A DNA stretch of 64,000 nt from Ensifer sp. PDNC004 (GTDB lineage: Bacteria; Pseudomonadota; Alphaproteobacteria; Rhizobiales; Rhizobiaceae). Positions within the stretch are counted from its first letter, which is position 1; every line of letters begins with the position of its first letter. This document shows, piece after piece, positions 48,817 to 64,000 of this stretch. The translations under genes were made by a program, and so were the position numbers. The DNA is taken from NCBI RefSeq assembly GCF_016919405.1, contig NZ_CP070352.1, positions 1,054,001-1,118,000 of the forward strand. The letters are read 5' to 3'. The notes beneath the pieces are model-generated. The model did no database searches. It was not told the DNA's origin and saw only the letters and a list, made by a program, of their open reading frames with translations.

Positions 48817-49686
48817 TCAGGCCTCGTCGGCAATGGGGTTGATGAGGGTGCCGATGCCCTCGGCCTCGACCTCGACGATGTCGCCGGGCTTCAGCCAGAT
48901 CGGCGGATCGAAACGGGCACCGGCGCCGGTCGGTGTGCCGGTGACGATAACGTCGCCGGGAACCAGCGTCGTGAAGGTCGAGACGTAGCTGATGATTTTG
49001 CGGAAGGAGAAGATCATCCGGCTGGTGCGATCCTGTTGGCGCACCTCGCCGTTCACCCGCGTTTCGAGCTTGATATCGGCAAGCTGGGCCTCGTCGGTGA
49101 AGGGCACCAGCCAGGGGCCGATCGACCCCGTGCGGTCGAAATTCTTGCCCTGGGTGACATTGAACTTGGCATGGCGAACCCAGTCGCGGATCGTGCCTTC
49201 GTTGCAGAGCGACAGTGCCGCGATATGGTCGAGTGCGCTCGACTCGGGAATGCGTCGACCGCCCTTGCCGATGACGATGACGATCTCGCCTTCATAATCG
49301 AACTGTGGGCTTTCCGGCGGGCGGATCAGCGGCTGGGCGTGCCCGGTGAAGGAGCGCGGAAAACGGATGAACAGCGAAGGATTGGAAGGTGCCGTCTGCC
49401 CGTCCTTGTACTCTTCGTTGCGGTCGGGGAAGTTGACGCCGACGCAGATGATCTTTTCCGGTGCCGGCACCGGGATTTCGTAGCGAACGTCCTTAAGCGA
49501 CAGGTCCGGCGACATTCCCACTGCGTCGTCGGCGAACCGGGCAAGGGCGCCCGCCTCGATCACTTCGCGCAGGGTCGGGAAGGTCGATCCGTAGCGTTTT
49601 GAGAGGTCGATCAGGCCGTTGCCGGAAACGAGACCGTAGCCCCGTCTGTCTCCGAGCGAAAAGGTGACGAAACGGGGAGGGGTCAT
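48817..49686 (-). CDS. hpaG: Fumarylacetoacetate hydrolase-family enzyme, HpaG-like decarboxylase/isomerase
   Basis: 289 residues, one FAH catalytic domain (about 75-285). It has CVGVNFPDR, FDYEGEIVIVIGKGG (metal Glu), QGKNFDRTGSIGPWLV and TGTPTGAGA. In the pathway it should decarboxylate 5-oxopent-3-ene-1,2,5-tricarboxylate; enterobacterial HpaG also isomerises and is a two-domain fusion, whereas this is a single domain. Its start overlaps the decarboxylase stop by four bases (ATGA). Assignment rests on context; a different FAH activity is possible. Confidence 0.82.
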   Translation of the reverse strand: MTPPRFVTFSLGDRRGYGLVSGNGLIDLSKRYGSTFPTLREVIEAGALARFADDAVGMSPDLSLKDVRYEIPVPAPEKIICVGVNFPDRNEEYKDGQTAPSNPSLFIRFPRSFTGHAQPLIRPPESPQFDYEGEIVIVIGKGGRRIPESSALDHIAALSLCNEGTIRDWVRHAKFNVTQGKNFDRTGSIGPWLVPFTDEAQLADIKLETRVNGEVRQQDRTSRMIFSFRKIISYVSTFTTLVPGDVIVTGTPTGAGARFDPPIWLKPGDIVEVEAEGIGTLINPIADEA

Positions 49687-51119
49687 CGGGAAGCCTTCGT
49701 CTTTTCGTGTTGTCCTTCGAGCGCTGCGGCGACCTCGGTAATGACGTCGAAGGCCACCTCGGCATCTTCCTCCATCATGTCGAACTGGCCGGCCTGGAAG
49801 CGGATTGCGACGTGGCCGTCGACGCGGGTCTGGGTCAGGTAGATGCGGCCGTCGTCGTTAATCGCGTTGACCAGCGCGATGTTATGGGCATCCGCATCGC
49901 CCTGGCTGCGATGACGGAACGAAAACAGCGACAGCATCGGCGGCGTGATGATCTCGAAATCCTTGTGGCTGCCCAACCGCTCCGCCAATTGTTCCGACCA
50001 ACGCACATGGTTGCGGATCATCGTCTGCAACCCGTCGAGTCCGTGGAAGCGCAGCAGGAACCAGAGTTTCAGCGCGCGGAAGCGCCGGCCGAGCGGGATC
50101 GTCCATTCGGAATAGTTGATGATGCCGTCGCGGCCATGGGTCTTCAGATATTCCGGCTGGATCGCGAGCGTTTTCACCAGATCGCCGGGACTGCGGATGA
50201 AATGCGCCGAGCAGTCGAACTGCGCACCCAGCCACTTGTGCGGATTGAAGACGACGGAATCCGCCGTCTCGACGCCGGTCCAGAGGTCGCGAAACTCTTC
50301 GCAGATCATCGCGGCCCCGGCCCAGGCGGCGTCGACATGGACGTAAAGACCGTGCGCATGCGCGACCCGCACGACCTCGGCGATGTCGTCACAGGCGCCC
50401 GTGCTGGTGCCGCCGGTGCAGGCAATCACGCCAGCCGGCAACAGGCCTGCCGCCTTGTCCTTGAGGATGGCGGCTTCCAGCGCGCCGGTGTCCATCGCGC
50501 GTCGTGGTCCCTTGGCCGGAATGCGCACGAGGTTTTCCTCGCCAATACCTGAAACCCAGATCGCCCGGTCGATCGAGGTGTGGACCTGGTCGGAGGAGTA
50601 GATGCGGAGCTGCTGCTGGCCGGAAAGTCCCTTCTTGTTGCCCTGCCAGCCGAGCGCCTTCTCGCGCATGACCAGCACGGCAGAGAGCGTCGCCGAGGAG
50701 GCGGAATCCTGGATCACGCCGGAAAAGCCTTCGGGCAGCCCGATCGCCTGGCGCAGCCAGTCGAGCACCTTGGTCTCAAGCTCGGTCGCTGCCGGCGAGG
50801 TCTGCCAGAGCATGCATTGCGCCGCCATGGCGGTGACCAGATATTCGGCGACGACAGAGACCGGCGCGGCATTTGCCGGGAAGTAGGCGAAGAAGCGCGG
50901 ATGCTGCCAATGGGTCATGCCGGGCAGGATGATCTTCTCGAAATCCTCGAAGATCGCCTCCATGTCCTCGCCCGTCTTCGGCGGCTGCGACGGGATCTGG
51001 GCGGCGATCGCGCCCGGTGCCGTCTGTGCCCGCACCGGCCGGTCGCGCAACGACGCGCGGTAGTCGGCGCCCCATTGCGCTGCCTTCAGCGACCATTCTC
51101 CGAAACTTTTCTGATCCAT
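49683..51119 (-). CDS. PLP-dependent aromatic-L-amino-acid decarboxylase
   Basis: 478 residues, group II decarboxylase fold. PLP Lys in VFNPHKWLGAQFDCS (about 293), Asp in HVDAAWAGAA, and GVIQDSASSATLSAVLVMRE. The length and motifs fit tyrosine/DOPA/tryptophan decarboxylases. It is embedded in the hpa operon between hpaD and hpaG and coupled to hpaG (ATGA). That suggests DOPA or tyrosine decarboxylation to dopamine or tyramine feeding the homoprotocatechuate route; no amine oxidase is nearby, so this is inference. Confidence 0.85.
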   Translation of the reverse strand: MDQKSFGEWSLKAAQWGADYRASLRDRPVRAQTAPGAIAAQIPSQPPKTGEDMEAIFEDFEKIILPGMTHWQHPRFFAYFPANAAPVSVVAEYLVTAMAAQCMLWQTSPAATELETKVLDWLRQAIGLPEGFSGVIQDSASSATLSAVLVMREKALGWQGNKKGLSGQQQLRIYSSDQVHTSIDRAIWVSGIGEENLVRIPAKGPRRAMDTGALEAAILKDKAAGLLPAGVIACTGGTSTGACDDIAEVVRVAHAHGLYVHVDAAWAGAAMICEEFRDLWTGVETADSVVFNPHKWLGAQFDCSAHFIRSPGDLVKTLAIQPEYLKTHGRDGIINYSEWTIPLGRRFRALKLWFLLRFHGLDGLQTMIRNHVRWSEQLAERLGSHKDFEIITPPMLSLFSFRHRSQGDADAHNIALVNAINDDGRIYLTQTRVDGHVAIRFQAGQFDMMEEDAEVAFDVITEVAAALEGQHEKTKASR

Positions 51120-51171: not shown

Positions 51172-52152
51172 TCAAGGCGCGACGATCGGCTGGGCTTTCA
51201 GGATCGAGTCGCGGATCTCGGCGCCGGCGAAGGCACTGCCTTCCTCGAACCAGGATTTTGGCGCCGGCGCGCCCCAGAGCGTCTGGCGCTGAGGGTCCTT
51301 CAGATCCCACTTGATTGGCTCGAGATCCGGGTCGACGGTTTGGTAATCCGAGCAATAGATCTCGATGCGGTGGCCATCAGGATCACGGACATAGAGGAAG
51401 AAGGCGTTGGAGATGCCGTGGCGGCCGGGGCCGCGCTCGATATTGGCAAGCCAGCCGGAGGTCGACATCAGGTCGAGCAGGTCGATGATGTTGAGCGGCG
51501 TCGGCACCCAGAAGGCGGTGTGGTGAAGGCGCGGACCGCGGCCGTTGGTAAAGGCGATGTCGTGCACGCCGCCCTTGCGATGGGTCCAGGCAGCCCAGAG
51601 ACGCCCCGTCTCCTCGTCGGCGGTGTATTCCGTCACCCGGAAGCCGATCTCGTTGTAGAAGGCGACAGCTTCGTCGACATTGGGCGAGAAGCAGTTGAAG
51701 TGGTCGATGCGGAGCGGCTTCACGCCGCGATAAAGGGCGTACTTCTGGTGGATTGGTGGCAGGCGGTCCATCTTCGAGTAGAACTCGAGCGGGATGCCCT
51801 GGGGGTCACGGGTGCGGAAAGTGCGCGCCTGATACGGGCGCTCGATCCACTCGACCGGCAGATCCTTGGTCTTAAAGAAATGCGCGGCCTTTTCGAGGTC
51901 CTCGTCGCCAAAAACCTTGAAGCCGAGGTCGCGTGCTTCTGCCGATGCCGCCTTCTTGAGGATGATGCAGTGGTGGCCGCGCTCCTCCATGGCCCGCAGA
52001 TAAATGGTGTCCGCCGTCTCGTCGGTGACCTGCAGGCCGAGCACGTCGACATAGAAGGCGCGGGACTTGGCGAGATCGGTGACGGCGAGCTCCACATGGC
52101 TCAGCCGCACGATGTTGAAGGGCGGGTGAAGGTTCGGTTTCGGCAAGGGCAT
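51172..52152 (-). CDS. hpaD: 3,4-dihydroxyphenylacetate (homoprotocatechuate) 2,3-dioxygenase
   Basis: Type I extradiol ring-cleavage dioxygenase with two VOC domains, 326 residues. Metal ligands: His in RIDHFNCF (about 150), His in RLHHTAFW (about 212), Glu in HRIEIYCSDYQ (about 264). It opens the ring of homoprotocatechuate to 5-carboxymethyl-2-hydroxymuconate semialdehyde. The enzyme resembles the Brevibacterium/Arthrobacter type more than the E. coli LigB-fold HpaD. It is upstream of the decarboxylase and downstream of hpaE. Confidence 0.93.
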   Translation of the reverse strand: MPLPKPNLHPPFNIVRLSHVELAVTDLAKSRAFYVDVLGLQVTDETADTIYLRAMEERGHHCIILKKAASAEARDLGFKVFGDEDLEKAAHFFKTKDLPVEWIERPYQARTFRTRDPQGIPLEFYSKMDRLPPIHQKYALYRGVKPLRIDHFNCFSPNVDEAVAFYNEIGFRVTEYTADEETGRLWAAWTHRKGGVHDIAFTNGRGPRLHHTAFWVPTPLNIIDLLDLMSTSGWLANIERGPGRHGISNAFFLYVRDPDGHRIEIYCSDYQTVDPDLEPIKWDLKDPQRQTLWGAPAPKSWFEEGSAFAGAEIRDSILKAQPIVAP

Positions 52153-52185: not shown

Positions 52186-53703
52186 TCAACCGCCGAGCTT
52201 GGCGATCGCATGCGCCGAGCTGGCAAAGGCGATGTTCTTGGTTTCCATGTAAAAGTCGAACGACCAGTCGCCGCCGTCGCGGCCAATACCCGAACTCTTG
52301 ACGCCGCCGAAGGGTGTCGGCAGGTGGCGCACGTTTTCCGAGTTTACCCAGATCATGCCCGCTTCGAGGTGGTCGGTGAAGCGGAAGGCGCGGGTGACGT
52401 CGGAGGTCCAGAGGTAACCGGTCAGGCCGTATTGTGTGTCGTTGGCGAGCGACAGTGCCTCCGCCTCGTCCTTGAAGGGGATGGCGGTCAGCACCGGCCC
52501 AAAAATTTCTTCCTGGGCGATGCGCATGCCGTTGTTGGCGCCGGTAAAGAGCGTCGGGGTGACGTAGCAGCCACCGCCAGGGCCTTGGAATTTCTCGCCA
52601 CCCGCAGCAACAGTCGCCCCTTCCTCGCGGCCGATGCGGATGTAGTCGAGCACCTTCTTCTCGTGCACAGGGTGAATGAGCGGGCCGACCACGGTCTCGG
52701 GGTCGAGCGGATGACCGACCTTGATGCGCTTGGCTTTTTCGGCAACCAGTGCGGTGAAGCGATCGTAGATGCTGTCTTCGACGAGGAGCCGCGAAGACGA
52801 GGTGCAGCGTTCGCCGTTCAGCGAATAGATCATGAAGACGGCGGCGTCGGCGGCGCGTTCGAGATCGGCATCGGCAAAGACGATGACAGGGTTTTTGCCG
52901 CCAAGTTCGAAATGCACGCGCTTCAGCGTGTCGGCACCCTGCCGCATGATCATCGAGCCGGTGCGGCTTTCGCCGACGAAGCCGATCGCCTTGATATCCG
53001 GATGTTCGGTGAGCGCCCGGCCGGCATCTTCACCGAAGCCGTTGACGAGGTTCCAGACACCCTTCGGCAGGCCCGCTTCCTCGGCGATCTCCACCAGCAG
53101 CCGCGCCGTCAGCGGTGAGAATTCGGCCGGCTTGTGCACGACCGTGCAGCCGGCGGCGAGCGCCGGGGCGATCTTCCAGGTCGACAGCATGAAAGGTGTG
53201 TTCCACGGGGTGATGATGCCGACCGGGCCGATCGGCACGCGCGTCGTCATGTTGATCTGGTTTCCGCCGCGCAGCACCTTGCCGTCGCGCGCCTCCGGCG
53301 CCCGGTCGGCAAAGAAGCGGAAGTTTTCCGCACCGCGCAGCGCCGCCTTGGCCATGAACTTCAGCGACTGTCCGGTATCCATGCACTCGACGAAAGCGAT
53401 CTCCTCGGCGCGGGCGACGATCGCGTCGGCGATTTTGTGCAGGAGCTTCTTGCGCGTCTCGCCGGGCATCGCGGCCCATTCGGCGAAGGCCGCTTTCGCA
53501 GCCTTGGCGGCGCGGTCGATATCGGCTGCCTTGCCACGCGCGATCTTTGCCAGCGGCTTCAAGTCGACAGGCGAGATTGTCTCGAAGGTCTCGCCATCGA
53601 GCGAAGGGATTGCCTCGCCGTTGATGTGGTTGAGCACGCCGTCGCTTTTGAAGCGGGCAAGGTAGCGTTCCGCCTTGGCGAGATTTTCGTCGAGCTTGGA
53701 CAT
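52186..53703 (-). CDS. hpaE: 5-carboxymethyl-2-hydroxymuconate semialdehyde dehydrogenase
   Basis: NAD-dependent aldehyde dehydrogenase, 505 residues. Catalytic Glu in VHFELGGKNP (about 275), Cys in NGERCTSSSRLLVED (about 308), Asn in TPWNTPFMLSTWK. It oxidises the semialdehyde produced by hpaD. The N-terminal extension (AKAERYLARFKSDG) is typical of HpaE. It follows hpaF after a 65-base gap. Confidence 0.94.
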   Translation of the reverse strand: MSKLDENLAKAERYLARFKSDGVLNHINGEAIPSLDGETFETISPVDLKPLAKIARGKAADIDRAAKAAKAAFAEWAAMPGETRKKLLHKIADAIVARAEEIAFVECMDTGQSLKFMAKAALRGAENFRFFADRAPEARDGKVLRGGNQINMTTRVPIGPVGIITPWNTPFMLSTWKIAPALAAGCTVVHKPAEFSPLTARLLVEIAEEAGLPKGVWNLVNGFGEDAGRALTEHPDIKAIGFVGESRTGSMIMRQGADTLKRVHFELGGKNPVIVFADADLERAADAAVFMIYSLNGERCTSSSRLLVEDSIYDRFTALVAEKAKRIKVGHPLDPETVVGPLIHPVHEKKVLDYIRIGREEGATVAAGGEKFQGPGGGCYVTPTLFTGANNGMRIAQEEIFGPVLTAIPFKDEAEALSLANDTQYGLTGYLWTSDVTRAFRFTDHLEAGMIWVNSENVRHLPTPFGGVKSSGIGRDGGDWSFDFYMETKNIAFASSAHAIAKLGG

Positions 53704-53768: not shown

Positions 53769-54161
53769 TCAGCCTTTGGAGGCGCGCAGCCTGGGGTGAA
53801 TGGCGTTCTTCTTCCAGCTCAGATCCGGGTCGATCTCACGGATTTCGAGGCTGAGGGCGAAGTGCGGCGTGGCGAAAAGCGTGGAAAGTTCGTCGCTCAC
53901 GGCCTTGAAGATCGCTTCGCCGGTCGCCTTCTTCTCAGCTTCCGTACGCCCGCGGCCGATGCGGAGGGACATGTCGATGAAGCCGTTCTCGGGCAGAAGA
54001 TCGGCGATCGCGTAGTCGAGGCTCCGGATCGTGCGCACCCTGACCGCACCGAGCTCGAAAAGGCCGGTGCTGAGGATCGTCCTGTGAACGGTCCGGCAAA
54101 GCCGGGCAAAGTCGACCTTGGTGTCGAGATTGCCGGAATATTCGATTGTCAGGTGCGGCAT
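53769..54161 (-). CDS. hpaF: 5-carboxymethyl-2-hydroxymuconate delta-isomerase
   Basis: 130 residues, tautomerase superfamily trimer, with the catalytic Pro directly after Met (MPHLTIEYS). It has the ENGFIDMSLRIGRGRT segment of the family. It interconverts the muconate tautomers in the homoprotocatechuate pathway. It is the first gene of the hpa operon and is divergent from hpaR. Confidence 0.92.
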   Translation of the reverse strand: MPHLTIEYSGNLDTKVDFARLCRTVHRTILSTGLFELGAVRVRTIRSLDYAIADLLPENGFIDMSLRIGRGRTEAEKKATGEAIFKAVSDELSTLFATPHFALSLEIREIDPDLSWKKNAIHPRLRASKG

Positions 54162-54269: not shown

Positions 54270-54758
54270 ATGTCCGATAGAGCGCTTATGAGCCGTGAGA
54301 AAACCAAGACCGATCTCGGTCCCGACGCCCTTTTGCCGCACAATACGCGCCGATCGCTGCCGATCGCGCTGCTGCGAGCGCGCGAAGCGGTCATGGCGCA
54401 TTTCCGCCCGATGCTCGCCCGTCACGATATCACCGAGCAGCAATGGCGGGTAATCCGCATCCTCGCCGAGGCTGGCCGGGTCGATGCTTCCGAAATGGCC
54501 GACAAGGCCTTCATCCTGGCGCCGAGCCTCACGCGCATTATCCGTTCGCTCGAAGAGCGCGGCCTGATCACCAAGCACAAGGACGCCGACGACGGACGCC
54601 GCGTGCTTCTGGAGATCGCGCCCGAGGGCATGCGGGTGATCGCCGATGTCAGCCCGGAAAGCCGCGCGATCTACGAGCAGCTCGAAGCTCGCTATGGCCA
54701 CGAACGTGTCGAAGTTCTGCTCGACATGCTCGACGAGCTTGCCACCCTCAACGACTGA
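54270..54758 (+). CDS. hpaR: MarR-family repressor of the homoprotocatechuate operon
   Basis: 162 residues from ATG 54270; ATG 54288 is also possible. The winged helix at about 60-130 has ITEQQWRVIRILAEAGRVDASEMADKAFILAPSLT in its helices, with ITKHKDADDGRRVLLEI as the wing. HpaR represses the hpa operon and senses 4-hydroxyphenylacetate-type acids. It is divergent from hpaF across a palindromic operator. It converges on the kinase gene with a 23-base gap. Confidence 0.93.
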   Translation: MSDRALMSREKTKTDLGPDALLPHNTRRSLPIALLRAREAVMAHFRPMLARHDITEQQWRVIRILAEAGRVDASEMADKAFILAPSLTRIIRSLEERGLITKHKDADDGRRVLLEIAPEGMRVIADVSPESRAIYEQLEARYGHERVEVLLDMLDELATLND

Positions 54759-54781: not shown

Positions 54782-55789
54782 TCATAGAGCCAGTTCTTCG
54801 GCAAGCGTCAGCGTCTCGTCGGCGTAGTGGCGGACGCGCTCGCGGGCGCCTGGCAATTCCGGTCGTGCGGCAAACCAGCCGATATAGGTGAGGCTGCGAA
54901 GCACGAGAAAAAGCGGCAGGTGGGAGAGCGCTTCGTCCGGCAGGGCACGGCGGCTGCGATAGCCTGAGATCAGCGCGGATTGGATCGCCTCGTACGCCGG
55001 CTCGCGGCGGTTCTTCAACAGAGCGGTGGCGATGTCGAACAGGCGAAAACCATGGCCGGCATCATCGAAATCGATGAAGGTCACGGCGTTCTCGGCGACC
55101 AGAACGTTTTCCCGAACAAGATCCGCATGGATCAGCCCAAAATCCTGAGCCGGCGTCGGCAGCGTTGCCACGTGCCGTCGGAGATCATGCCGCAAGGCCG
55201 AAAGCCCGGCCGCCTGCGCCGAAGAAAGGCCGTCGCAGTCCCAGAACCTTCCCCAAAGCGGTCGCTCGCCAAGCAGCCCGTCCGCGTCCCAGGCTGGACG
55301 CCAGAACTCCGCAGGCGGCGCCCAGCGGTCGGCAATGTCGTGCATTCGCGCCATCGATGCGCCGAGTGCGGCAAAGATCGTGCTGAGCATTTCCGGCGGA
55401 AGGGCCAGCGCTTTGCCGCTTTCGCCCAATGGTTCGCCGCCCATCCAGCCGATGACATCGGCGTGCTGCGCGGCAAACACTCCATCTTCCGGCAGAGCGA
55501 CAAGCAACCGCCCGTCCACTGCCGTGATCGGCTGCGGCACAGCAAGACCGCCATCGCCGAGTGCTGCCATCCATTGCAGTTCCGAGCGGAGCGAATCCTC
55601 GCCGTGATAGCCGGCACGGTGCAGCCGTAGCGCCGCCGGGCGACCATCGCCAAGCCGGACGCGAAACACCGCGTTTTCGCGGTATTTCAGAAGTTCCGGC
55701 CGTTGGTCGGAGACGCCCCAGTGCGTAAGCGCCTGGCAGGCGCGCCTGTCGAGCGCGGCGCGAAAGTGCGGAGGCAGGTCGGCGACCAT
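54782..55789 (-). CDS. Small-molecule kinase (APH/choline kinase fold, hydroxylysine-kinase-like)
   Basis: 335 residues. Catalytic loop IHADLVRENVL (about 218, Brenner Asp and Asn), metal loop FIDFDDAGHGFRLFDIA (about 238), and nucleotide strand VFRVRLGDGRPAALRLHR near 40. The fold covers aminoglycoside, choline, homoserine and hydroxylysine kinases. Its position directly after a class III PLP enzyme (7 bases) matches the kinase plus phospho-lyase pairing known from hydroxylysine kinase. It is the last gene of a six-gene operon. Substrate unknown; a hydroxy-amine is the inference. Confidence 0.85.
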   Translation of the reverse strand: MVADLPPHFRAALDRRACQALTHWGVSDQRPELLKYRENAVFRVRLGDGRPAALRLHRAGYHGEDSLRSELQWMAALGDGGLAVPQPITAVDGRLLVALPEDGVFAAQHADVIGWMGGEPLGESGKALALPPEMLSTIFAALGASMARMHDIADRWAPPAEFWRPAWDADGLLGERPLWGRFWDCDGLSSAQAAGLSALRHDLRRHVATLPTPAQDFGLIHADLVRENVLVAENAVTFIDFDDAGHGFRLFDIATALLKNRREPAYEAIQSALISGYRSRRALPDEALSHLPLFLVLRSLTYIGWFAARPELPGARERVRHYADETLTLAEELAL

Positions 55790-55796
55790 CGTCGGA

Positions 55797-57080
55797 TCAC
55801 AGACCCGAAAGCACGTCGTCGAGCGTCGACAGCATGAAGTCGGCGTTGTCGCGCGTGAACGGCATCGGCGGCCGGATCTTCGTCGTGCATTGGTGGATGC
55901 CGAGCTTGCCCATCAGGATGCCGCGGTCGCGCATGCCGTTGATTACTCGGGTCGCGAGATCGCTGTCCGGCGTTTTGGCTCCGCGGTCGGTGACGAGTTC
56001 TGCGCCGAAGAACAGGCCGCTGCCCCTGATGTCGCCGATCACCCCGTGCTTGTCCGCAAGTCGCGTCAGGCCCGCCTTGGCGTAAGAACCCACCGTGACG
56101 GCGTTTTCGATGAGCTTCTCGTCTTCGATCACGTCGAGCACCGCCATGGCCGCGGCACAGGATACCGGGTTGCCGCCGAAGGTGTTGAAGTAGCGAAACG
56201 CTTTGCGGAAGGCGTTGAGCGTGTCGGCCCCCGCCACCACGCCACCGATCGGATGACCGTTGCCCATCGGCTTTCCGAGCGTGACGATATCGGGGACGAA
56301 ACCTGCCTTCTGGTGTCCCCACATATGGCCGCCGGTGCGGCCGAAGCCCGGCTGGACTTCGTCGGCAATCACAAGGCCACCGGCCTTTCTGACGGCGGCG
56401 ATGGCGCCATCGAGAAAGCCCGACGGCAATGCCGGAAAGCCCTCATTGGCAAAGAAGGGATCGATGATCAGCGCCGAGAAGCCGTGCGGGCTCTCTTCAA
56501 GCGAGGCGATCGCCTCTTCTACCTTGGCGGTGAAGGCGGCGGCAAAGGCGGCACCCGGTTCGCGCCCAAGCGGCCGGTAGCTGTCGGGCGCCGGCACGTG
56601 GCGCACATGGCCGCCGAAGCCGCCGACCGGCGGCATGCGGGTCGAAAGCTGCGACACGGCCGTGGTGTTACCGTGATAGGTATGATCGGTGGCGATCACT
56701 CCGGTCCTGTCGGTCACGGCTTGAGCCATGCGCAGCGCCACGTCGTTCGCTTCGCTGCCGGTGCAGGTGAGGATCGCCGTATCGAGGCTCTTGTCGAAGG
56801 TGGCGGTCAACCGCTCGACATAGTCGAGTATGCCTTCGTGCAGGTAGCGGGTGTGGGTGTTGAGGATCGACGCCTGCCTTGCGATTGCCTCGGTCACCCG
56901 CGGGTGGCAATGACCGACATGCGGCACATTGTTGTAGCAGTCGAGATAGCGGCGGCCGTCGGCGTCATAGAGCCAGACGCCTTCGCCGCGCACCAGATGC
57001 ACCGGCTGCTCGTAAAACAGCGACATGTTGCGCCCGAGCAGCCGCTCGCGGCGCGCGATCAGATCCGCGTTGTCGGCCAT
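55797..57080 (-). CDS. Class III aminotransferase-fold PLP enzyme, phospho-lyase-like
   Basis: 427 residues. PLP Lys in TLGKPMGNGHPIGG (about 270), DEVQPGFGRTGG, and CYNNVPHVGHCHPRVTEAI near 50. KPMGNGHP and the YLDCYNNV-HVGHCHP start recall ethanolamine-phosphate and 5-phosphohydroxylysine phospho-lyases, which use this fold for elimination rather than transamination. The adjacent kinase supports that reading. A plain aminotransferase role remains possible. The downstream kinase starts 7 bases after its stop; its own start is 4 bases after the second class III gene. Confidence 0.82.
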   Translation of the reverse strand: MADNADLIARRERLLGRNMSLFYEQPVHLVRGEGVWLYDADGRRYLDCYNNVPHVGHCHPRVTEAIARQASILNTHTRYLHEGILDYVERLTATFDKSLDTAILTCTGSEANDVALRMAQAVTDRTGVIATDHTYHGNTTAVSQLSTRMPPVGGFGGHVRHVPAPDSYRPLGREPGAAFAAAFTAKVEEAIASLEESPHGFSALIIDPFFANEGFPALPSGFLDGAIAAVRKAGGLVIADEVQPGFGRTGGHMWGHQKAGFVPDIVTLGKPMGNGHPIGGVVAGADTLNAFRKAFRYFNTFGGNPVSCAAAMAVLDVIEDEKLIENAVTVGSYAKAGLTRLADKHGVIGDIRGSGLFFGAELVTDRGAKTPDSDLATRVINGMRDRGILMGKLGIHQCTTKIRPPMPFTRDNADFMLSTLDDVLSGL

Positions 57081-57084
57081 CGCG

Positions 57085-58446
57085 TTATCCCCTTGCGGCG
57101 GTCAGGCCGGCGTCGAGCGCCGAGAGGATACGGGTGACGTCAGCGGCGGTGATCACCAGTGGCGGCGACAGGATGACGTTGGCGCCGGACGTCCGCACCA
57201 TCACGCCGGCGTCATAGGTCACGTCCTGGACCCTTTGGACCACATCCTTCGCGGCACCGGTCTTCTTGTCGCGATCCGAAACCAGTTCGAGCGCGCACAT
57301 CAGACCCTTGCCGCGCACGTCGCCGATCAGTTCGTGCCTCTCCTTGAGTGCTTGAAGACCGGCCATCAGCTCCTCGCCGCGCGCGCAGGCATTCGCCGCC
57401 ACGTTCTGCTTGCGTGTCTCCTTCAGCGTTGCCAGCGCTGCCGCGGCGCCGACCGGATGGCCGGAATAGGTGTAGCCGTGTCCGATCGATCCGGCGGCCG
57501 TCTTGTTGCTTTCGAAAGCTTGCGCCACCTTTTCGGCGATCATCACGGCGCCGAACGGATAGTAGCCGTTGGTGATCGCCTTCGCCGTCGACATGAAATC
57601 CGGCTTCACGCCAAAGAGACGCGAGCCGGTCCAGGCGCCGGTGCGACCGAAGGCGGTGATCACCTCGTCGGCTACGAGCAGGATGCCGTGGCGGTCGCAG
57701 ATCTCGCGCATCAGCGGCATGAAGGTTTCGTGCGGCACGATCACGCCGCCGGCGCCGAGCACCGGTTCCATGATCAGCGCGGCGATCGTGTCAGCGCCCT
57801 GGAAGGCGATCTCGTCCTCGAAAAGCCGGGCAATCGCCTTCGCAATGACGGCGCCGTCGGTCGTGTCGAAGGGGTTGCGGTAGGTGTAGGGCGCCGGCAG
57901 GTGAAAGACGCCCGGAAGCAGTGGCTCGTAGTTGCGGCGGAAATTGGCGTTGCCGTTGACCGAGGCGCCGCCGAAATGGGTGCCGTGATAGCCCTTCTTC
58001 AACGCGACGAACTTGGTGCGCTCGGGCTGGCCGTTGAGCTTGTGGTACTGGCGGGCAAGCCTGAGGCAGGTCTCGACGGAATCCGAGCCGCCCGAGGTGA
58101 AGAAGGAGCGGGTAAGGCCATCCTCGCGGAACCATTCGGCGAGCTCGTAGGAAAGCTCGATCAGCGGCGAATTGGTAGTGCCGCGGAAAGTCGAATAGTA
58201 GGGCAGCTCGTCGAGCTGGCGGCGGATCGCTTCCTTCACCGGTTCGCAGGAATAGCCGAGATTAACGTTCCAGAGGCCGCCGACCGCGTCGAGCACCTTC
58301 TTGCCGTGGATATCGACGATCTCGACGCCTTCGCCGGCATTGATGATGCGCGGTGGCGTCGCCTGCATCTCGGCCGGATGCGCCATCGGGTGCCAGAGAT
58401 GGCGGGCGTTGTTCTCGATGAGGAAGTTGGTTTCGCGCATGGTCAT
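57085..58446 (-). CDS. Class III omega-aminotransferase
   Basis: 453 residues. PLP Lys in STAKAITNGYYPFGAVM (about 287), EPVLGAGGVIVP, DEVITAFGRTG, and GGLWNVNLGYSCEPVKEAI. This is the omega-aminotransferase type (putrescine, beta-alanine, taurine or similar amine donors). It has a four-base overlap with the HAD gene (ATGA) and lies 4 bases from the other class III enzyme. Two such enzymes in a row, one likely a lyase, suggest a path with two amine-removal steps. Confidence 0.9.
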   Translation of the reverse strand: MTMRETNFLIENNARHLWHPMAHPAEMQATPPRIINAGEGVEIVDIHGKKVLDAVGGLWNVNLGYSCEPVKEAIRRQLDELPYYSTFRGTTNSPLIELSYELAEWFREDGLTRSFFTSGGSDSVETCLRLARQYHKLNGQPERTKFVALKKGYHGTHFGGASVNGNANFRRNYEPLLPGVFHLPAPYTYRNPFDTTDGAVIAKAIARLFEDEIAFQGADTIAALIMEPVLGAGGVIVPHETFMPLMREICDRHGILLVADEVITAFGRTGAWTGSRLFGVKPDFMSTAKAITNGYYPFGAVMIAEKVAQAFESNKTAAGSIGHGYTYSGHPVGAAAALATLKETRKQNVAANACARGEELMAGLQALKERHELIGDVRGKGLMCALELVSDRDKKTGAAKDVVQRVQDVTYDAGVMVRTSGANVILSPPLVITAADVTRILSALDAGLTAARG

Positions 58447-59117
58447 GCTCCTGTCAGTTCAAGGCCGAGCATCTGAAGCGCTCTGGCATAGCTTTCCGCG
58501 GGGCGGGTGACGTCGAAATGGACGTGAGGCAGGCCGACGGCCCGCGCACCCTCGATGTTCTTCAACTGGTCATCCACGAAGACGCAGGCCTCGCGCGGCA
58601 GGTTGAGCTGGCTCAGCACCAGCTCGTAGGCGCGGGGGTCCGGTTTCAGGATGTTGGTGTAGGTGGCGTCGACGATCGTCTCGAAGCGATCGATCAACGG
58701 GAAACGCTCGCGGAACGCGATCCCGTAAAAGAGATCGAGCTCGTTGGAGAGGATCGCAAGCCGGATGCCGGCCCCATGGGCGGCGAGGATCGCGTCGCGT
58801 GCCTCCGGTCGGAGCACGAGTTCCGGCTCCGCCCCGCGCGCCCGCTGCACGAAGGTCTTCATGTCGCTCCAGTCTTCGCCGAGCAACTGGCCGACCTCGC
58901 TGGTGCGCGTCGTCCAATAGTCCCGTTCGGTGATCTCGCGCCGCTGCATGGCCGCCCAGAGCGGATCGGTGGCGGGTTCGAACGGCCCGCGCCAGGTGAG
59001 CGTACCGGGCTGAAGCCCGAGGGTGCGTTCGGTGACGTCATGGGTCTCGAACAGCGTGCGGGTGACGACGCCGCCGAAATCGAGGATGAGGGCCTTGGCG
59101 CTCATGTTCGTTCTCAT
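58443..59117 (-). CDS. HAD-superfamily hydrolase
   Basis: 224 residues. Motif I ALILDFGGVVTRT has the nucleophile Asp but Gly instead of the usual second Asp, as in the YihX/epoxide-hydrolase-N type. LAILSNE is motif II, KPDPRAYELV motif III, and VFVDDQLKNIEGARAVG motif IV. A phosphatase or dehalogenase-like role on a small molecule is expected. The start at 59117 overlaps the Tm-1-like gene stop (ATGA), and its own stop overlaps the next start, so it is firmly inside the operon. Confidence 0.88.
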   Translation of the reverse strand: MRTNMSAKALILDFGGVVTRTLFETHDVTERTLGLQPGTLTWRGPFEPATDPLWAAMQRREITERDYWTTRTSEVGQLLGEDWSDMKTFVQRARGAEPELVLRPEARDAILAAHGAGIRLAILSNELDLFYGIAFRERFPLIDRFETIVDATYTNILKPDPRAYELVLSQLNLPREACVFVDDQLKNIEGARAVGLPHVHFDVTRPAESYARALQMLGLELTGA

Positions 59118-60367
59118 GGCCGGCCCTCGGGCACGATGCCGCGCGCCACCCAGTCGTCGAAGATTGCCAGCGCTGCCATCGAAAACTCAGGCGCGTTGAT
59201 ATGGCTGTCGACCTCGTGCAGCGCGATGCCTGACGGGATGGAACGGCGCATCTCGTCGATGAAGGCGCCGAGCGCATCCGGTTCGTGGAGCGGCTCGTCC
59301 GGTTGATCCCACTCCTGAATGCCCTTCAGCGGCAAGATGAAGGCGACCTCCGCCTCGGTGTCGGCAAGTTTGCCGCCGATGACGCGGGCGATCTCGCGCC
59401 GCCCTTCGGCCGAGGTGGTCACGGAGCCGAGCAGCCGGTTGTGGGCGTGATAGGGACGGTCGGCGAAAGCGTCCGGAACGGGCTGCCAGGCCGGCAGGTC
59501 GACCATGTCGACGGCGCCGGGTGCGATGATCTGCGGGATGCCGGCGCGTCCGGCATTCTCCAGCCGGTCCGGTCCTGAGGTGACGACCGTGCCGTGGTGA
59601 TGGTTGCTGACCTCCTGGATGCAGAAGTCGAAGACAGCGGTGAAGCCCTTCTCAGCGGCGATCGCCTCGAAGGCGCGCCCGCCCATGCCGGTCGAGTGGA
59701 AGACCGCGACGTCATAGCCGCGACGTTCGAGCTCGGGCTTCAGGTATTTCATGTATTTGAGGCAGCTCGACCCGAGCGAGGTCATGCCGATCAGCGGCCG
59801 CGATCCGTCCGGCTTTGTACCGAAACGGGCCGCACCGACGACCGCGCCGCAGGCCTGTGAAAGAACGGAACGGCAGATGCCGTTGAGACCGTAGAGACCG
59901 CCGGCCCAGAGGATCATCATCAGGTCGGGGGCGATGCGCTCCGGCGGAAGCAAGTGCGAATAGGCAATTGTTGAGACGATGAATTTCGGCACGCCGAGCG
60001 GCAGGGCAGCGGCAACATCGAGCGCGAGATCGGTGCCCATGGAACCGCCAAGAATGATGACACCATCGGCCTGGCCAGCCTCGTAGAGCGAGCGGGTGAG
60101 GGCGCTAGCACCTTCTGCCATCAGCGCCATGGCGCTGTGTTCGTCGCCGCTGGATGCGATCGCGGCGATGGTGACGCCGGCCGCTTCGGCGATGTCGTGG
60201 CGCGAGTATTCCGGCTGGTAGGGCGGGTCGCCGAGAATGCTGACATCCATCATCACAGGCAATCCGCCGGCTTCGCGGATGACGGACGCCATGAACTGGA
60301 GTTCGTCGCATTTGGTGTCTCCCGTACCCACGACCAGGATATTGGGGAGACGGTTCATCGCATTCAT
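59114..60367 (-). CDS. Tm-1-like ATP-binding protein (UPF0261)
   Basis: 417 residues, bacterial homolog of the N-terminal domain of tomato Tm-1. Signs: ILVVGTGDTKCDELQFM at the start, IILGGSMGTDLA, STIAYSHLLPPERI, GMTSLGSS and HVR-type AHNRLLGSVTTSAEGRREIAR. Biochemical function in bacteria is not established; ATP binding is inferred from the family. It starts in the TGATG overlap with the IclR gene, so the regulator and this gene are co-translated. It stands at the head of the catabolic operon. Confidence 0.87.
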   Translation of the reverse strand: MNAMNRLPNILVVGTGDTKCDELQFMASVIREAGGLPVMMDVSILGDPPYQPEYSRHDIAEAAGVTIAAIASSGDEHSAMALMAEGASALTRSLYEAGQADGVIILGGSMGTDLALDVAAALPLGVPKFIVSTIAYSHLLPPERIAPDLMMILWAGGLYGLNGICRSVLSQACGAVVGAARFGTKPDGSRPLIGMTSLGSSCLKYMKYLKPELERRGYDVAVFHSTGMGGRAFEAIAAEKGFTAVFDFCIQEVSNHHHGTVVTSGPDRLENAGRAGIPQIIAPGAVDMVDLPAWQPVPDAFADRPYHAHNRLLGSVTTSAEGRREIARVIGGKLADTEAEVAFILPLKGIQEWDQPDEPLHEPDALGAFIDEMRRSIPSGIALHEVDSHINAPEFSMAALAIFDDWVARGIVPEGRP

Positions 60368-61149
60368 CAGCCGGCCCTCCTTGCCAGCGGATCGGCAGCA
60401 ACCTGCTCCAACCCGAAAAGTCTTTCGGAAATGCGCCTGGCCGTTGCCATCGCGGCGCGGCCCATCTGTTCCACCGTCTCCTTGTCGGCCCGTGTCGCGG
60501 GGGCGGCGATCGCGATCGCGCCAACCGGCGTGCTGCCGGGCGCTCGGATCGGGGCGGCGACACTGACGACGCCGGTTTCGAGCCCGTGATGGCAGATCGA
60601 GTAGCCGCGCCGGAGCGTCTCGCCGAGTGTCTGGCGCAGCGCCGCCGGGTCGGTCAGCGTGTGGTCGGTAAAGGCTTGAAGCGGCGCCGACAGCGCCGCA
60701 TCGATGTCCTTCTGCGGACAGAAGGCGAGAAAACCGAGGCCGGATGCGGTCGCGTGGAAGGGCAGGATGCTGCCGACATCGACGATGACGCGATGGGCGC
60801 GCTGCGAGTCTTCCACATGGACGGTCGAGAGGCGGCCGGCTGCGTATTCGGAGAGGTGAACGGTCTCGCCCGCAAGGCCTGCGAGTTCCCGCGCAAAAGG
60901 CGTCGCGACGCTCAGATATGGAAAACGCGCCTCGCGGATGCGGGCAAGCCGCACCGGCGCGCCGCCGAGCCGATAGCGCCGCGTTTCCGTGTCCTGCTCG
61001 ACGAAGCCGTGTTTTTCCAGTTCCACGAGGAAGCGTCTGGCCGTCGCCTTGTCGAGCCCACAGTGGCGGGCGATGTCGCTCAAACCCGCTTCCTTCTCCA
61101 GGCGCGAGATCGCGTCGAGCAAAGTCAGGGCCTTACCGATGGTGCTCAT
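60367..61149 (-). CDS. IclR-family transcriptional regulator
   Basis: 260 residues. The winged helix at about 1-65 (ALTLLDAISRLEKEAGLSDIARHCGLDKATARRFL) and IclR effector domain (80-250) with ICHHGLETGVVSVAAPIR. First gene of its operon, divergent from the permease gene, with an inverted repeat in between. It presumably controls both directions and senses the pathway substrate or an intermediate. Confidence 0.92.
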   Translation of the reverse strand: MSTIGKALTLLDAISRLEKEAGLSDIARHCGLDKATARRFLVELEKHGFVEQDTETRRYRLGGAPVRLARIREARFPYLSVATPFARELAGLAGETVHLSEYAAGRLSTVHVEDSQRAHRVIVDVGSILPFHATASGLGFLAFCPQKDIDAALSAPLQAFTDHTLTDPAALRQTLGETLRRGYSICHHGLETGVVSVAAPIRAPGSTPVGAIAIAAPATRADKETVEQMGRAAMATARRISERLFGLEQVAADPLARRAG

Positions 61150-61259
61150 CCATTCCTCCGTTGTCGAGCGCCCCGTCAGTCCTCTCGCCTGTTCCCTCCT
61201 AAGGAGCGGTAGGCCCGCTCTCCCGGTCGTTTTGGGTCGAGATACTTAACATGCGAAAT

Positions 61260-61320
61260 AACTTGACAGGGCCAGATGCAATTTGCAAGTCTATATTTGA
61301 AGCTGAGGTTCAAATAATGA
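61260..61320. promoter_or_regulatory. Candidate IclR operator and promoter for the permease gene
   Basis: TATTTGAA (61294-61301) and TTCAAATA (61309-61316) form a perfect 8-base inverted repeat around a 7-base spacer. TGCAATTTGCA (61278-61288) is a second dyad, and TTGACA at 61263 may be a -35. All lie in the IclR/permease divergent gap, which is otherwise empty. Confidence 0.55.
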
Positions 61321-61447
61321 ACCGAAAGACTTGCGCGGCAAAGACAAAAAGCAAGCCCCGCGCCTCAAGTCCGCTTCAGGGAGCAGCCGCCGGAGAGAAG
61401 GACCGGAGGCGAAAAGGCGTTCGCGCCAGCAAGGGGAGCTTAAGACC

Positions 61448-62899
61448 ATGACCAATTCACCCACGCCCGTGACCGGGGCGAACCAATTGCGCAAGAACGC
61501 CCTCGGCGTCGGCGCCGTCACCTTTCTCGTCGTTTCCGCCGCCGCACCGCTGACCGCGGTTGCCGGCGGCGTTCCATTGTCGATGATGCTCGGAAACGGT
61601 GCGGGCATTCCCGGCACCTTTCTGATTGTCACGCTGATCTTGCTGTTGTTTTCCGTGGGCTACGTCGCGATGGCGCGGCACATCCGAAACGCCGGTGCCT
61701 TTTATGCCTATACGGCCCAGGGCCTCGGCGGGCTGATGGGCGGTGCCGCCGCGATGATCGCGATCCTCGCCTATAACGCCATGCAGATCGGGGTCTTCGG
61801 CCTCTTCGGCGCGGCGACGGCAGGGCTCTTCGCCGGCCTGGGGATAGATTTCCCCTGGTGGGTCTGGACTTTCGCCGGCATCGCAGCGGTCGGCATTCTC
61901 GGCTATCGCCGTGTTGACCTTTCGGCCAAGGTGCTGACCGTCCTCGTCATCCTCGAATATCTGGTCGTGCTCGTCATCGATGTCGCGATCCTCGCCAAGG
62001 GTGGTGACGGCGGTTTGGGCACGGTCTCGTTCACCCCCTCGGCCATCCTCTCCGGCTCGCCTTCGATCGGCATTCTCTTCTGCTTCGCCGCCTTCATCGG
62101 TTTCGAGGCGACGACGATCTACAGCGAAGAGGCCCGCGATCCGGAAACGACCGTACCGCGCGCGACCTATATTTCCGTGCTGATCATCGGCATTTTCTAC
62201 ATGTTCACATCCTGGCTGATGGTGAACGCTGCCGGTGCCGACAAGCTGGTGCCGGAACTGCAGGGCCTTGCCGATCCGACCACCTTCCTCTTCGGTCTTG
62301 CCGAGCGTTTTGCCGGTGGCTGGCTGCCGCCGCTGATGAACGTGCTCTTCGTCACCAGCCTTTTTGCCGGCGTGCTGGCGTTCCATAACGGTGTCGCGCG
62401 CTATCTCTACGTCGCCGGCCGCGAGCGGCTGCTGCCGGCCTCGATCGGCGTGACCCATCCGGTCTATCACAGCCCGCATGTCGGCTCGCTGATCCAGACG
62501 GTGATTGCCGTGCTGGTCGTCGCGCTCTTTGCGGCTACGGGCCAGGACCCGGTGCTGGCGCTCTTCTCCTGGCTGACGAATGTCGGCACGCTTGCGGTCA
62601 TGACGCTGATGGCCTTCACCGCCTTTGCGATCGTCGCCTTCTTCGGCCGCAATCCTGGACTTGAAACGAACCCGCTGGTGACCAAGGTCATTCCCGTCGT
62701 CACCGGCCTGATCCTCGTTGCCGTCATCATCGCGATTGCCGCCAATTTCGGCGATCTCGCCGGCGCCACCGGCATGCTCGCCGTCTTCCTGCCGGGGCTG
62801 GTGGTGATCTTCGGGGTCATCGGGCTCTTCCTGGCGGCATCGCTGAAATCGGGCAACCCGATCGAGTTCGCCCGCCTGGGCGCCGGCCAGGAGATCTGA
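61448..62899 (+). CDS. APC-superfamily amino acid/amine permease
   Basis: 483 residues from ATG 61448, preceded by GGGGAG; codons further upstream are open but basic and not part of the family. Twelve or more helices; the first substrate loop VSAAAPLTAVAGGVPLSM and the FIGFEATTIYSEEARDPETTVPRATY block are typical of amino acid and amine importers. It faces the IclR operon and is followed by an aldehyde dehydrogenase. It probably imports the substrate of the system. Confidence 0.92.
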   Translation: MTNSPTPVTGANQLRKNALGVGAVTFLVVSAAAPLTAVAGGVPLSMMLGNGAGIPGTFLIVTLILLLFSVGYVAMARHIRNAGAFYAYTAQGLGGLMGGAAAMIAILAYNAMQIGVFGLFGAATAGLFAGLGIDFPWWVWTFAGIAAVGILGYRRVDLSAKVLTVLVILEYLVVLVIDVAILAKGGDGGLGTVSFTPSAILSGSPSIGILFCFAAFIGFEATTIYSEEARDPETTVPRATYISVLIIGIFYMFTSWLMVNAAGADKLVPELQGLADPTTFLFGLAERFAGGWLPPLMNVLFVTSLFAGVLAFHNGVARYLYVAGRERLLPASIGVTHPVYHSPHVGSLIQTVIAVLVVALFAATGQDPVLALFSWLTNVGTLAVMTLMAFTAFAIVAFFGRNPGLETNPLVTKVIPVVTGLILVAVIIAIAANFGDLAGATGMLAVFLPGLVVIFGVIGLFLAASLKSGNPIEFARLGAGQEI

Positions 62900-62968
62900 T
62901 CTCTCGGGGACATCGCCTTTGGGCATGGTGGCTCGCCGCCATGCCTGCAACAAACGGGACAGGACACC

Positions 62969-64000
62969 ATGCAGGACAAGATCGATCAATTGCGCAACCT
63001 GCCCGTCGCGGCTCAGAAACTGTTCATCGGCGGCCGTTGGCAGGAGAGCCTCTTGGGCGTGACGCTCGACGTCGTCTCGCCGATCGACGGTCGGCATCTG
63101 ACGACGATTGCCGATGCGGCAGCCGGTGACGTCGATGCGGCGGTTCGCGCGGCGCGCGCCGCTTTCGAGAAGGGAAGCTGGTCGAAGGCTGCCCCGGCGC
63201 AACGCAAAAAGGTCCTGACGCGCATTGCCGAGATCATCGAGGCGCACGCGCTGGAACTGGCCGTTCTCGGCGTGCGCGATAACGGCACCGAAATCTCGAT
63301 GGCGCTGAAGGCGGAGCCAGGCAGTGCTGCCGGCACATTCCGCTACTATGCCGAGGCGCTCGACAAGGTCTATGGCGAAATCGCGCCGACGGCCGACAAT
63401 ATCCTCGGCCTCATTCATCGCGAGCCGATCGGCGTGGTCGCCGCGATCGTTCCCTGGAATTTTCCGCTGATGATCGGCGCCTGGAAGATCGCGCCGGCGC
63501 TTGCCGCCGGCAATTCCGTCGTGCTGAAGCCAGCCGAGGGCGCATCGCTTAGCCTGCTGAGGCTCGCTGAGATCTGCGCCGAGGCCGGTTTGCCCGAAGG
63601 CGTGTTGAATGTCGTCACCGGCCGCGGCGCGACGACGGGCGAAGCGATCGGGCTTCACGGCGATATCGATGTACTCGCCTTCACCGGTTCTGGCGGCGTC
63701 GGTCGTCGGCTGCTCGAATATTCCGCCCGCTCGAACCTGAAGCGCGTCTATCTCGAACTCGGCGGCAAGTCGCCGAACGTCGTCTTTGCCGACGCACCCG
63801 ACCTCGACCAGGCCGCACGCATTTCCGCCTATGGCATCTTCCGCAATTCCGGCCAGGTCTGTGTCGCCGGCTCCAGGCTCCTAGTTGAGCGCTCGATCTA
63901 TGAAGCCTTCGCAGAGAAGGTGGCGGCGATCGCGGCCGGTCTGAAGTTCGGCGACCCGCTGCTTCTTTCGACGGAGGCCGGCGCCATCTCCAGCGATGCG
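62969..64000 (+). CDS. Aldehyde dehydrogenase (3' end outside window)
   Basis: 344 codons are visible of an expected 490-500. Glu in YLELGGKSPNVVFAD (about 270), catalytic Cys in NSGQVCVAGSRLLVE (about 300), Asn in VPWNFPLMIGAWK. It resembles aminoaldehyde and gamma-glutamyl-aminobutyraldehyde dehydrogenases. It lies 69 bases after the permease and should oxidise the aldehyde generated by the lyase or aminotransferase opposite. The remainder lies outside the window. Confidence 0.92.
   Translation, partial: MQDKIDQLRNLPVAAQKLFIGGRWQESLLGVTLDVVSPIDGRHLTTIADAAAGDVDAAVRAARAAFEKGSWSKAAPAQRKKVLTRIAEIIEAHALELAVLGVRDNGTEISMALKAEPGSAAGTFRYYAEALDKVYGEIAPTADNILGLIHREPIGVVAAIVPWNFPLMIGAWKIAPALAAGNSVVLKPAEGASLSLLRLAEICAEAGLPEGVLNVVTGRGATTGEAIGLHGDIDVLAFTGSGGVGRRLLEYSARSNLKRVYLELGGKSPNVVFADAPDLDQAARISAYGIFRNSGQVCVAGSRLLVERSIYEAFAEKVAAIAAGLKFGDPLLLSTEAGAISSDA

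Follow-up and report, generated by a model that had tools for sequence, protein, structure and literature searches.

An operon for a kinase and a phospholyase inside a homoprotocatechuate gene neighbourhood of Ensifer is a candidate for the catabolism of octopamine-type amines

We analysed a stretch of 64,000 nucleotides (the window) from the 6.78 Mb genome of Ensifer sp. PDNC004 (NZ_CP070352.1, positions 1,054,001 to 1,118,000; G000:C1:1054001-1118000 in our numbering), in which gene calls delimit an operon of six minus-strand genes: KIN (an APH-fold kinase), PLY (a class III phospholyase dependent on pyridoxal phosphate, PLP), OAT (an omega-aminotransferase), HAD (a hydrolase), TM1 (a Tm-1-like protein of UPF0261) and IclR (a regulator). 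The operon lies inside a neighbourhood of homoprotocatechuate (hpa) genes, since an hpa run lies downstream of it and HpaC- and HpaB-like genes follow past the window end. We consider it somewhat more probable than any other outcome, at roughly 0.55, that the operon serves the catabolism of beta-hydroxylated 4-hydroxyphenethylamines (octopamine, noradrenaline and relatives), which would pass through KIN, PLY, an aldehyde dehydrogenase (ALDH) and the hpa enzymes while TM1 and HAD protect the phenol. The cluster is not a chance assembly; its genes are found again, sometimes in a different arrangement, in other Rhizobiales, Rhodobacterales and Granulosicoccaceae.

As judged from its sequence, PLY is a phospholyase-family protein. 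In the PDB it matched the phospholyase A1RDF1 best (5g4i, 413 bits), then human ETNPPL (6tor, 355 bits), and the next family after the phospholyases was dialkylglycine decarboxylase, at 194 bits. The initial annotation, which had placed both class III enzymes in an amine system, proposed a family tree as a check. The maximum-likelihood tree of 67 rows separates the phospholyases, among them every PLY row, ETNPPL and A1RDF1, from this genome's class III aminotransferases at a support of 100/100, PLY falling in the phospholyase clade and not among the aminotransferases, and OAT grouped with the aminotransferases, also at 100/100. The proposal was thus upheld for PLY and has to be corrected for OAT, which by the same kind of evidence is an ordinary aminotransferase and probably a side branch, possibly for non-hydroxylated amines. 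Residue K270 of PLY, which we take to be the PLP lysine, is at least 97% conserved in the alignment of the 75 loci of the core clade defined below. The same genome holds three further phospholyase-like regions outside the PLY clade, one in L032 (C1:1469037) and two in L033 (C2:3638392 and C2:3635859), with open frames of 1039, 1214 and 994 residues, a size that suggests fusions to other domains. In the tree, which was built without PHYKPL, ETNPPL groups with L032 and one of the L033 regions (99/92), apart from the PLY of the window.

The principal evidence for an aromatic substrate is the recurrent linkage of PLY to hpa genes. A scan of named bacterial and archaeal genomes with the PLY alignment confirmed at least 593 stretches, of which the best 80 loci were used; neighbouring genes were called and clustered in 91 loci, namely these 80 and 11 others. 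A locus was counted as linked if at least two hpa genes from a fixed query set lay within ~10 kb, and the count left out 10 near-identical loci of the same genus, the duplicates L077 and L113, L031, and the short loci L001-L030. By this measure 34 of the 75 core-clade loci were hpa-linked (25 of the 75 with at least four hpa genes), versus none of 10 loci of a nested clade and none of 22 outer phospholyases (core versus controls, p = 5e-7 by a Fisher test that ignores shared ancestry). Going by the titles of their records, the linked loci comprise 20 from Rhizobiales and 14 from Rhodobacterales, Granulosicoccaceae and Chromatiales, and a tree of 54 rows, 19 of them linked, requires nine or more changes of the linked state. 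Some of the junctions are tight. Six Rhizobium loci have hpaF 50-54 bases after KIN on the same strand; in L108, a metagenome-assembled genome of Rhodobacterales, PLY, KIN and hpaF follow one another with overlaps of 4 bases each (first-start calls), and the run goes on with hpaE, a dioxygenase of the HpaD_Fe type (TIGR02298 above cut-off), hpaG and hpaH; in L123, from Granulosicoccaceae, KIN begins 14 bases after hpaH.

The nested PLY-KIN clade, which has no hpa link, lies near a gene pair of the NAPRTase/isochorismatase type (L114, L119, L128, L135, L139, L140, L142, L147 and L150). By clustering, L137 is the only one of the 10 nested-clade loci without the pair; one member of each gene (nicotinate phosphoribosyltransferase and an isochorismatase-family protein) was identified. 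This clade likely acts on a different substrate.

The association was also seen at the level of whole genomes, in comparisons that ignore shared ancestry. Our sample of relatives consisted of 151 genomes, that of the window included, 22 of which have PLY at 65% identity or more. Full-length HpaD occurred in 22/22 genomes with PLY versus 13/129 without (by genus, 10/10 versus 13/122), and HpaF, at E<=1e-30, in 22/22 versus 14/129. Within the genus of the window 13 of 16 genomes have both PLY and full-length HpaD, and both are missing from the other three, G003, G012 and G015; of HpaD, fragments alone survive in G003 and G015, and the pattern looks like a joint loss of the amine module and the ring-cleavage path. 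In a sample of 398 Pseudomonadota genomes, HpaF was present in all 6 with the whole cluster versus 42/392 others; two of the six (G000 and G087) are also among the relatives and three belong to one genus. Cluster status there was taken from 20 fetched regions and the loci already analysed, which covered all but two (G393 and G418, 52-53% identity) of the 24 genomes with a PLY match at E<=1e-130. One of four genomes with a nested-clade PLY in this sample has HpaF. For 50 of the 80 named loci, HpaF was found in 33/40 core genomes, 2/8 of the nested clade and 0/2 others, and HpaD of the window type in 27/40, 2/8 and 1/2, respectively.

Together, the linkage and the co-occurrence strengthen the earlier hint, drawn from the neighbouring hpa genes, at an aromatic beta-hydroxy amine, and they make hydroxylysine or ethanolamine less likely as the substrate. 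An ordinary aliphatic amino-alcohol pathway (for ethanolamine, 1-amino-2-propanol or hydroxylysine) that came to stand beside hpa by chance and was kept there by synteny would agree with the characterised relatives, which act on phosphoethanolamine and phosphohydroxylysine (6tor is titled an ethanolamine-phosphate phospho-lyase), and with Fisher tests that are uncorrected for ancestry. We nevertheless regard it as very improbable: PLY and HpaD occur together also in 7 of the 22 genomes where they lie on different contigs or far apart (mostly drafts), linkage has changed repeatedly on the tree, and the L032 region and the L033 region that group with ETNPPL may cover those substrates.

The other genes of the operon also recur. 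TM1 is present in 54 of the 75 core loci and KIN accompanies it in all 54; HAD is found in 34 of these 54 and in 1 of the 21 without TM1. Residues H221, D223 and N228 together with D240 and D242 of KIN (71 core loci aligned), and D13, K158, D182 and D183 of HAD (35 core loci aligned), are at least 97% conserved, and S124 of HAD is also conserved. The closest solved relative of TM1 by sequence is 9mpy (177 bits, versus 135 for plant Tm-1), a UPF0261 protein crystallised with acetovanillone, a phenol. In the organism from which 9mpy comes, acetovanillone catabolism begins with a single-component kinase, MarK, according to the portions of PMC13101465 available to us. The initial annotation had left the Tm-1-like and HAD proteins without a role; both are recurrent in the set and a role can be proposed, namely that, by analogy, TM1 probably adds and HAD removes a protecting phosphate on the phenol. 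A likeness of TM1 to HpeHI/AcvAB was considered and rejected, as HpeH and HpeI resemble rifampin phosphotransferase rather than UPF0261 (PMC12167813, in the portions available), which leaves only the single-component MarK/9mpy line. The openly licensed UPF0261 papers that were listed, PMC5028733 among them, gave no enzyme function in the parts examined.

In the proposed pathway, the amine would be imported by the APC-family permease encoded divergently from the operon, its phenol phosphorylated by TM1 and its side-chain beta-hydroxyl then phosphorylated by KIN. PLY, acting through PLP on the primary amine, would eliminate the beta-phosphate, and hydrolysis of the resulting enamine would give ammonia and an arylacetaldehyde, which ALDH would oxidise to the arylacetate. 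HAD would finally strip the phenol phosphate, releasing 4-hydroxyphenylacetate for ring hydroxylation and cleavage by the hpa enzymes. The phenol phosphate would prevent spontaneous loss of the benzylic phosphate by way of a quinone methide, and this proposed block would account for the company that a phenol kinase and a phosphatase keep with KIN and PLY. OAT could supply this aldehyde too, starting from tyramine or dopamine, which the amino acid decarboxylase (AADC) encoded in the hpa run may produce; IclR would control the gene set from a palindrome described below; and N-methylated substrates such as synephrine are perhaps used by relatives with added demethylase-like genes. What we observed is the order of the genes, the families to which they belong, their linkage and the conservation of the palindrome; the substrate, each of these reactions, their order and the roles of TM1 and HAD are what we propose. 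The fuller claim, that octopamine-type neuro-amines are degraded via a doubly phosphorylated intermediate by a UPF0261 phenol kinase, an APH-fold kinase, a class III phospholyase and a HAD phosphatase, we put forward only tentatively.

Several observations weigh against this pathway. Fewer than two hpa genes were found near 41 of the 75 core loci, some of them on short contigs. HpaF is missing from 7 of the 40 core genomes and window-type HpaD from 13, though hpaG/hpaH are linked in L123 and L125, and the unrelated HpaD_Fe serves in some clusters. In nine loci with a demethylase-like gene (see below) hpa is not linked, and HpaF occurs elsewhere in five of the nine genomes and is missing in four. 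The 75 loci include near-identical pairs (for example L087/L090 and L116/L117), shared ancestry is ignored by the Fisher tests, and a phylogenetic independent-pairs test of TM1/OAT presence versus hpa linkage was not significant. As to the chemistry, the quinone-methide argument is one of general chemistry, motif I of HAD reads DFG and so misses the usual second Asp of DxD, TM1 is only ~30% identical to 9mpy, the predicted structure of TM1 ranks plant Tm-1 above 9mpy by Z, and 9mpy is equated with MarK by us. Finally, neither TM1 nor OAT is seen in four hpa-linked loci (L108, L110, L125 and L144), two of which, L110 and L144, are stretches of full length; in L144 no KIN is seen either.

Some of these points would be accommodated if the substrate class and the route through KIN, PLY, ALDH and hpa were the same but operated on the free phenol, with TM1 and HAD doing something else, such as handling a second substrate, repair of wrongly phosphorylated by-products or regulation. 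In favour of this, besides the low identity to 9mpy, are L108, L110 and L125, in which KIN or PLY stands with hpa without TM1 in view (of the three, only L110 is not a short contig), and the 20 of 54 TM1 loci from which HAD is missing. The constant company of KIN with TM1, and the binding of a phenol by the closest solved relative of TM1, argue the other way, and we think a free-phenol route rather unlikely but not negligible.

Regulation of the gene set appears to be shared. The palindrome GGTTCANNNNNTGAACC is conserved where IclR and the APC permease gene diverge, as seen in an alignment of this spacer from 27 loci and the window; its copy at 61307-61323 is the sole exact match in the genome, and exact copies occur in 39 of 208 fetched loci, a set with some mutual overlap. 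Allowing one mismatch at most, anywhere in the locus, we found it in 38 of the 50 core loci that have IclR, in 6 of the 25 that do not and in none of 32 controls. The 91 annotated loci hold 51 such matches; ~33 are situated between IclR and an APC permease or a tripartite (Tct) transporter, and most of the others adjoin other cluster genes. A search of the window alone with two mismatches allowed gave one match, no more than expected by chance. Because the palindrome is common to both kinds, a related inducer probably governs clusters that differ in their transporter; we infer that IclR is the protein that binds it. In two Shinella loci (L075 and L082) the palindrome lies upstream of TM1, facing genes for an HpaD_Fe-type dioxygenase and AADC.

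This last arrangement bears on another explanation, in which AADC converts tyrosine or DOPA to tyramine or dopamine for OAT, ALDH and the hpa enzymes, and KIN, PLY and TM1 serve some other or accessory amine and share only the neighbourhood. The overlap of AADC with hpaG in the window speaks for it, as do three Shinella-type loci (L075, L082 and, with one mismatch, L041) in which the AADC side and the TM1 operon face each other across the palindrome, and the presence of OAT in 52 of 58 TM1/OAT loci. AADC is found, however, in only 8 of the 75 core loci, and KIN or PLY stands directly within hpa runs in L108, L123 and the six Rhizobium loci, which makes this explanation improbable in our judgement.

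The layout of the window is given in Table 1. The description of six tightly joined minus-strand genes was borne out at every coordinate and junction (IclR and TM1 overlap by 1 base, TM1 and HAD by 4, and HAD and OAT by 4; gaps of 4 and 7 bases separate OAT from PLY and PLY from KIN), and gene calls agree that the APC permease and the aldehyde dehydrogenase are divergent from them. The closest NCBIfam model to ALDH is PuuC, followed by betaine-aldehyde and phenylacetaldehyde (StyD) dehydrogenases, all under their cut-offs. Downstream, hpaR is convergent with the operon, with 23 bases between it and the end of KIN, and is followed by hpaF, hpaE, hpaD, AADC, hpaG, hpaH and hpaI. HpaD, HpaE, HpaF, HpaH and HpaI score above curated NCBIfam or Pfam cut-offs, which assigns the run to the homoprotocatechuate pathway. 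AADC, within this run, overlaps hpaG by 4 bases and scores far under the named decarboxylase equivalogs. The HpaC- and HpaB-like candidates lie ~5.6-7.7 kb beyond the window end (L031) and score under their cut-offs; the HpaC candidate scores higher as RutF than as HpaC.

Table 1. Features of the operon and its surroundings, in window positions
Feature	Position	Strand	Assignment and basis
hpaI	47189..48001	-	4-hydroxy-2-oxoheptanedioate aldolase; TIGR02311 above cut-off
hpaH	48010..48813	-	2-oxo-hept-4-ene-1,7-dioate hydratase; TIGR02312 above cut-off
hpaG-like isomerase/decarboxylase half	48817..49686	-	TIGR02303 164 bits, under cut-off 276.4; half-model match
AADC	49683..51119	-	group II PLP amino acid decarboxylase; PF00282 above cut-off
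hpaD	51172..52152	-	3,4-dihydroxyphenylacetate 2,3-dioxygenase; TIGR02295 above cut-off
hpaE	52186..53703	-	5-carboxymethyl-2-hydroxymuconate semialdehyde dehydrogenase; TIGR02299 above cut-off
hpaF	53769..54161	-	5-carboxymethyl-2-hydroxymuconate isomerase; PF02962 above Pfam cut-off at G000:C1:1107787-1108158
hpaR	54270..54758	+	MarR-type regulator of homoprotocatechuate genes; TIGR02337 above cut-off
KIN	54782..55789	-	APH-fold small-molecule kinase; Pfam PF01636 above cut-off; nearest PDB chain 6ef6
PLY	55797..57080	-	class III PLP phospholyase; PDB matches 5g4i, 6tor; tree 100/100
OAT	57085..58446	-	class III omega-aminotransferase; NCBIfam NF005683 above cut-off
HAD	58443..59117	-	HAD-IA hydrolase; Pfam PF00702 above cut-off
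TM1	59114..60367	-	UPF0261 (Tm-1-like); both UPF0261 domains above Pfam cut-off
IclR	60367..61149	-	IclR-family regulator, first gene of the operon; PF09339 and PF01614 above cut-off
Palindrome GGTTCAAATAATGAACC	61307..61323	.	putative IclR operator, IclR-APC intergenic
APC-family permease	61448..62899	+	PF13520 above cut-off; ATG at 61448; proposed importer
ALDH	62969..64000, on to L031:1447 beyond window	+	PF00171; proposed arylacetaldehyde oxidation

Related clusters carry additional genes. Nine (L087, L090, L111, L126, L130, L132, L044, L045 and L046), all with TM1, encode a demethylase-like FAD/GcvT protein of ~820 residues that resembles the sarcosine-oxidase and dimethylglycine-dehydrogenase types, and six of the nine add a gene like those for NADH:flavin oxidoreductases (families assigned from L045). 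Such genes would fit N-methylated substrates such as synephrine; because none of the nine is hpa-linked and four of the genomes lack HpaF, the product of these clusters may go elsewhere. In L122 (14235-17902) a P450, a glutamine-synthetase-like protein, a 2Fe-2S ferredoxin and a GATase adjoin the cluster (families assigned from L122), and by clustering some of these neighbours are present in L089, L099, L107, L120, L123 and L129; perhaps they gamma-glutamylate and hydroxylate an amine and so yield a substrate for KIN and PLY. Three Mesorhizobium loci (L093, L096 and L138) have a P450 gene between the APC permease and ALDH (family assigned from L096), which possibly serves O-demethylation.

Octopamine dehydratase (EC 4.2.1.87) and synephrine dehydratase (EC 4.2.1.88) have the net reaction expected here, the conversion of a beta-hydroxy amine to 4-hydroxyphenylacetaldehyde and ammonia (or methylamine). 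Each is described as a single dehydratase, whereas we propose an ATP-using kinase and a phospholyase, and we know of no sequence for either. If the doubly phosphorylated route is true, these sequence-less dehydratases would be kinase-phospholyase pairs, and genes would be named for an activity that, to our knowledge, has only orphan EC numbers. A UPF0261 subfamily would gain a candidate role, protection and deprotection by phosphate would be a recurring trick in aromatic catabolism, and the cluster would serve to predict the ability to use biogenic amines of plants and animals among Rhizobiales, Rhodobacterales and Granulosicoccaceae.

The proposal combines elements of several known systems. 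Reportedly, biochemical work of the 1970s on Erwinia and Pseudomonas described an amino-alcohol kinase together with an amino-alcohol-phosphate phospho-lyase. As in our proposal, the amino alcohol is phosphorylated there and then eliminated to an aldehyde; the differences are aliphatic substrates, no phenol kinase or phosphatase, and no ring cleavage. The window PLY shares a class III PLP clade with the ammonia phospholyases ETNPPL and A1RDF1 (5g4i) and may perform the same elimination of phosphate and ammonia, but it belongs to a separate, hpa-linked clade, whose substrate is expected to be an aryl phospho-amine and not a small aliphatic one. Few lyases are placed in this subgroup in the portions seen of PMC8154272, where PbfA, a lyase of the same superfamily, acts on a hydroxy-aminophosphonate. 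The available portions of a paper on aminoacetone and aminopropanol (PMC4349456) mention no phospholyase, and among the matches listed in the openly licensed literature none joined a kinase, a phospholyase and hpa.

A parallel for the proposed roles of TM1 and HAD is the catabolism of acetovanillone by Hpe, Acv and MarK, where phenol phosphorylation is likewise followed by dephosphorylation. In the Hpe/Acv pathway, as described in the portions available of PMC9618137, work on the side chain begins after phosphorylation of the phenol, and the phosphate is then taken off by a phosphatase that, among characterised enzymes, is most closely related to NagD. The side-chain step of Hpe/Acv is a carboxylation by a biotin enzyme, whereas the window operon encodes none; no three-component biotin carboxylase was found among the six operon and two divergent proteins, genes further off having been only partly scanned. 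With the homoprotocatechuate pathway, lastly, the window shares hpaDEFGHI and hpaR, and here that pathway would be fed by a linked amine module and not only by 4-hydroxyphenylacetate.

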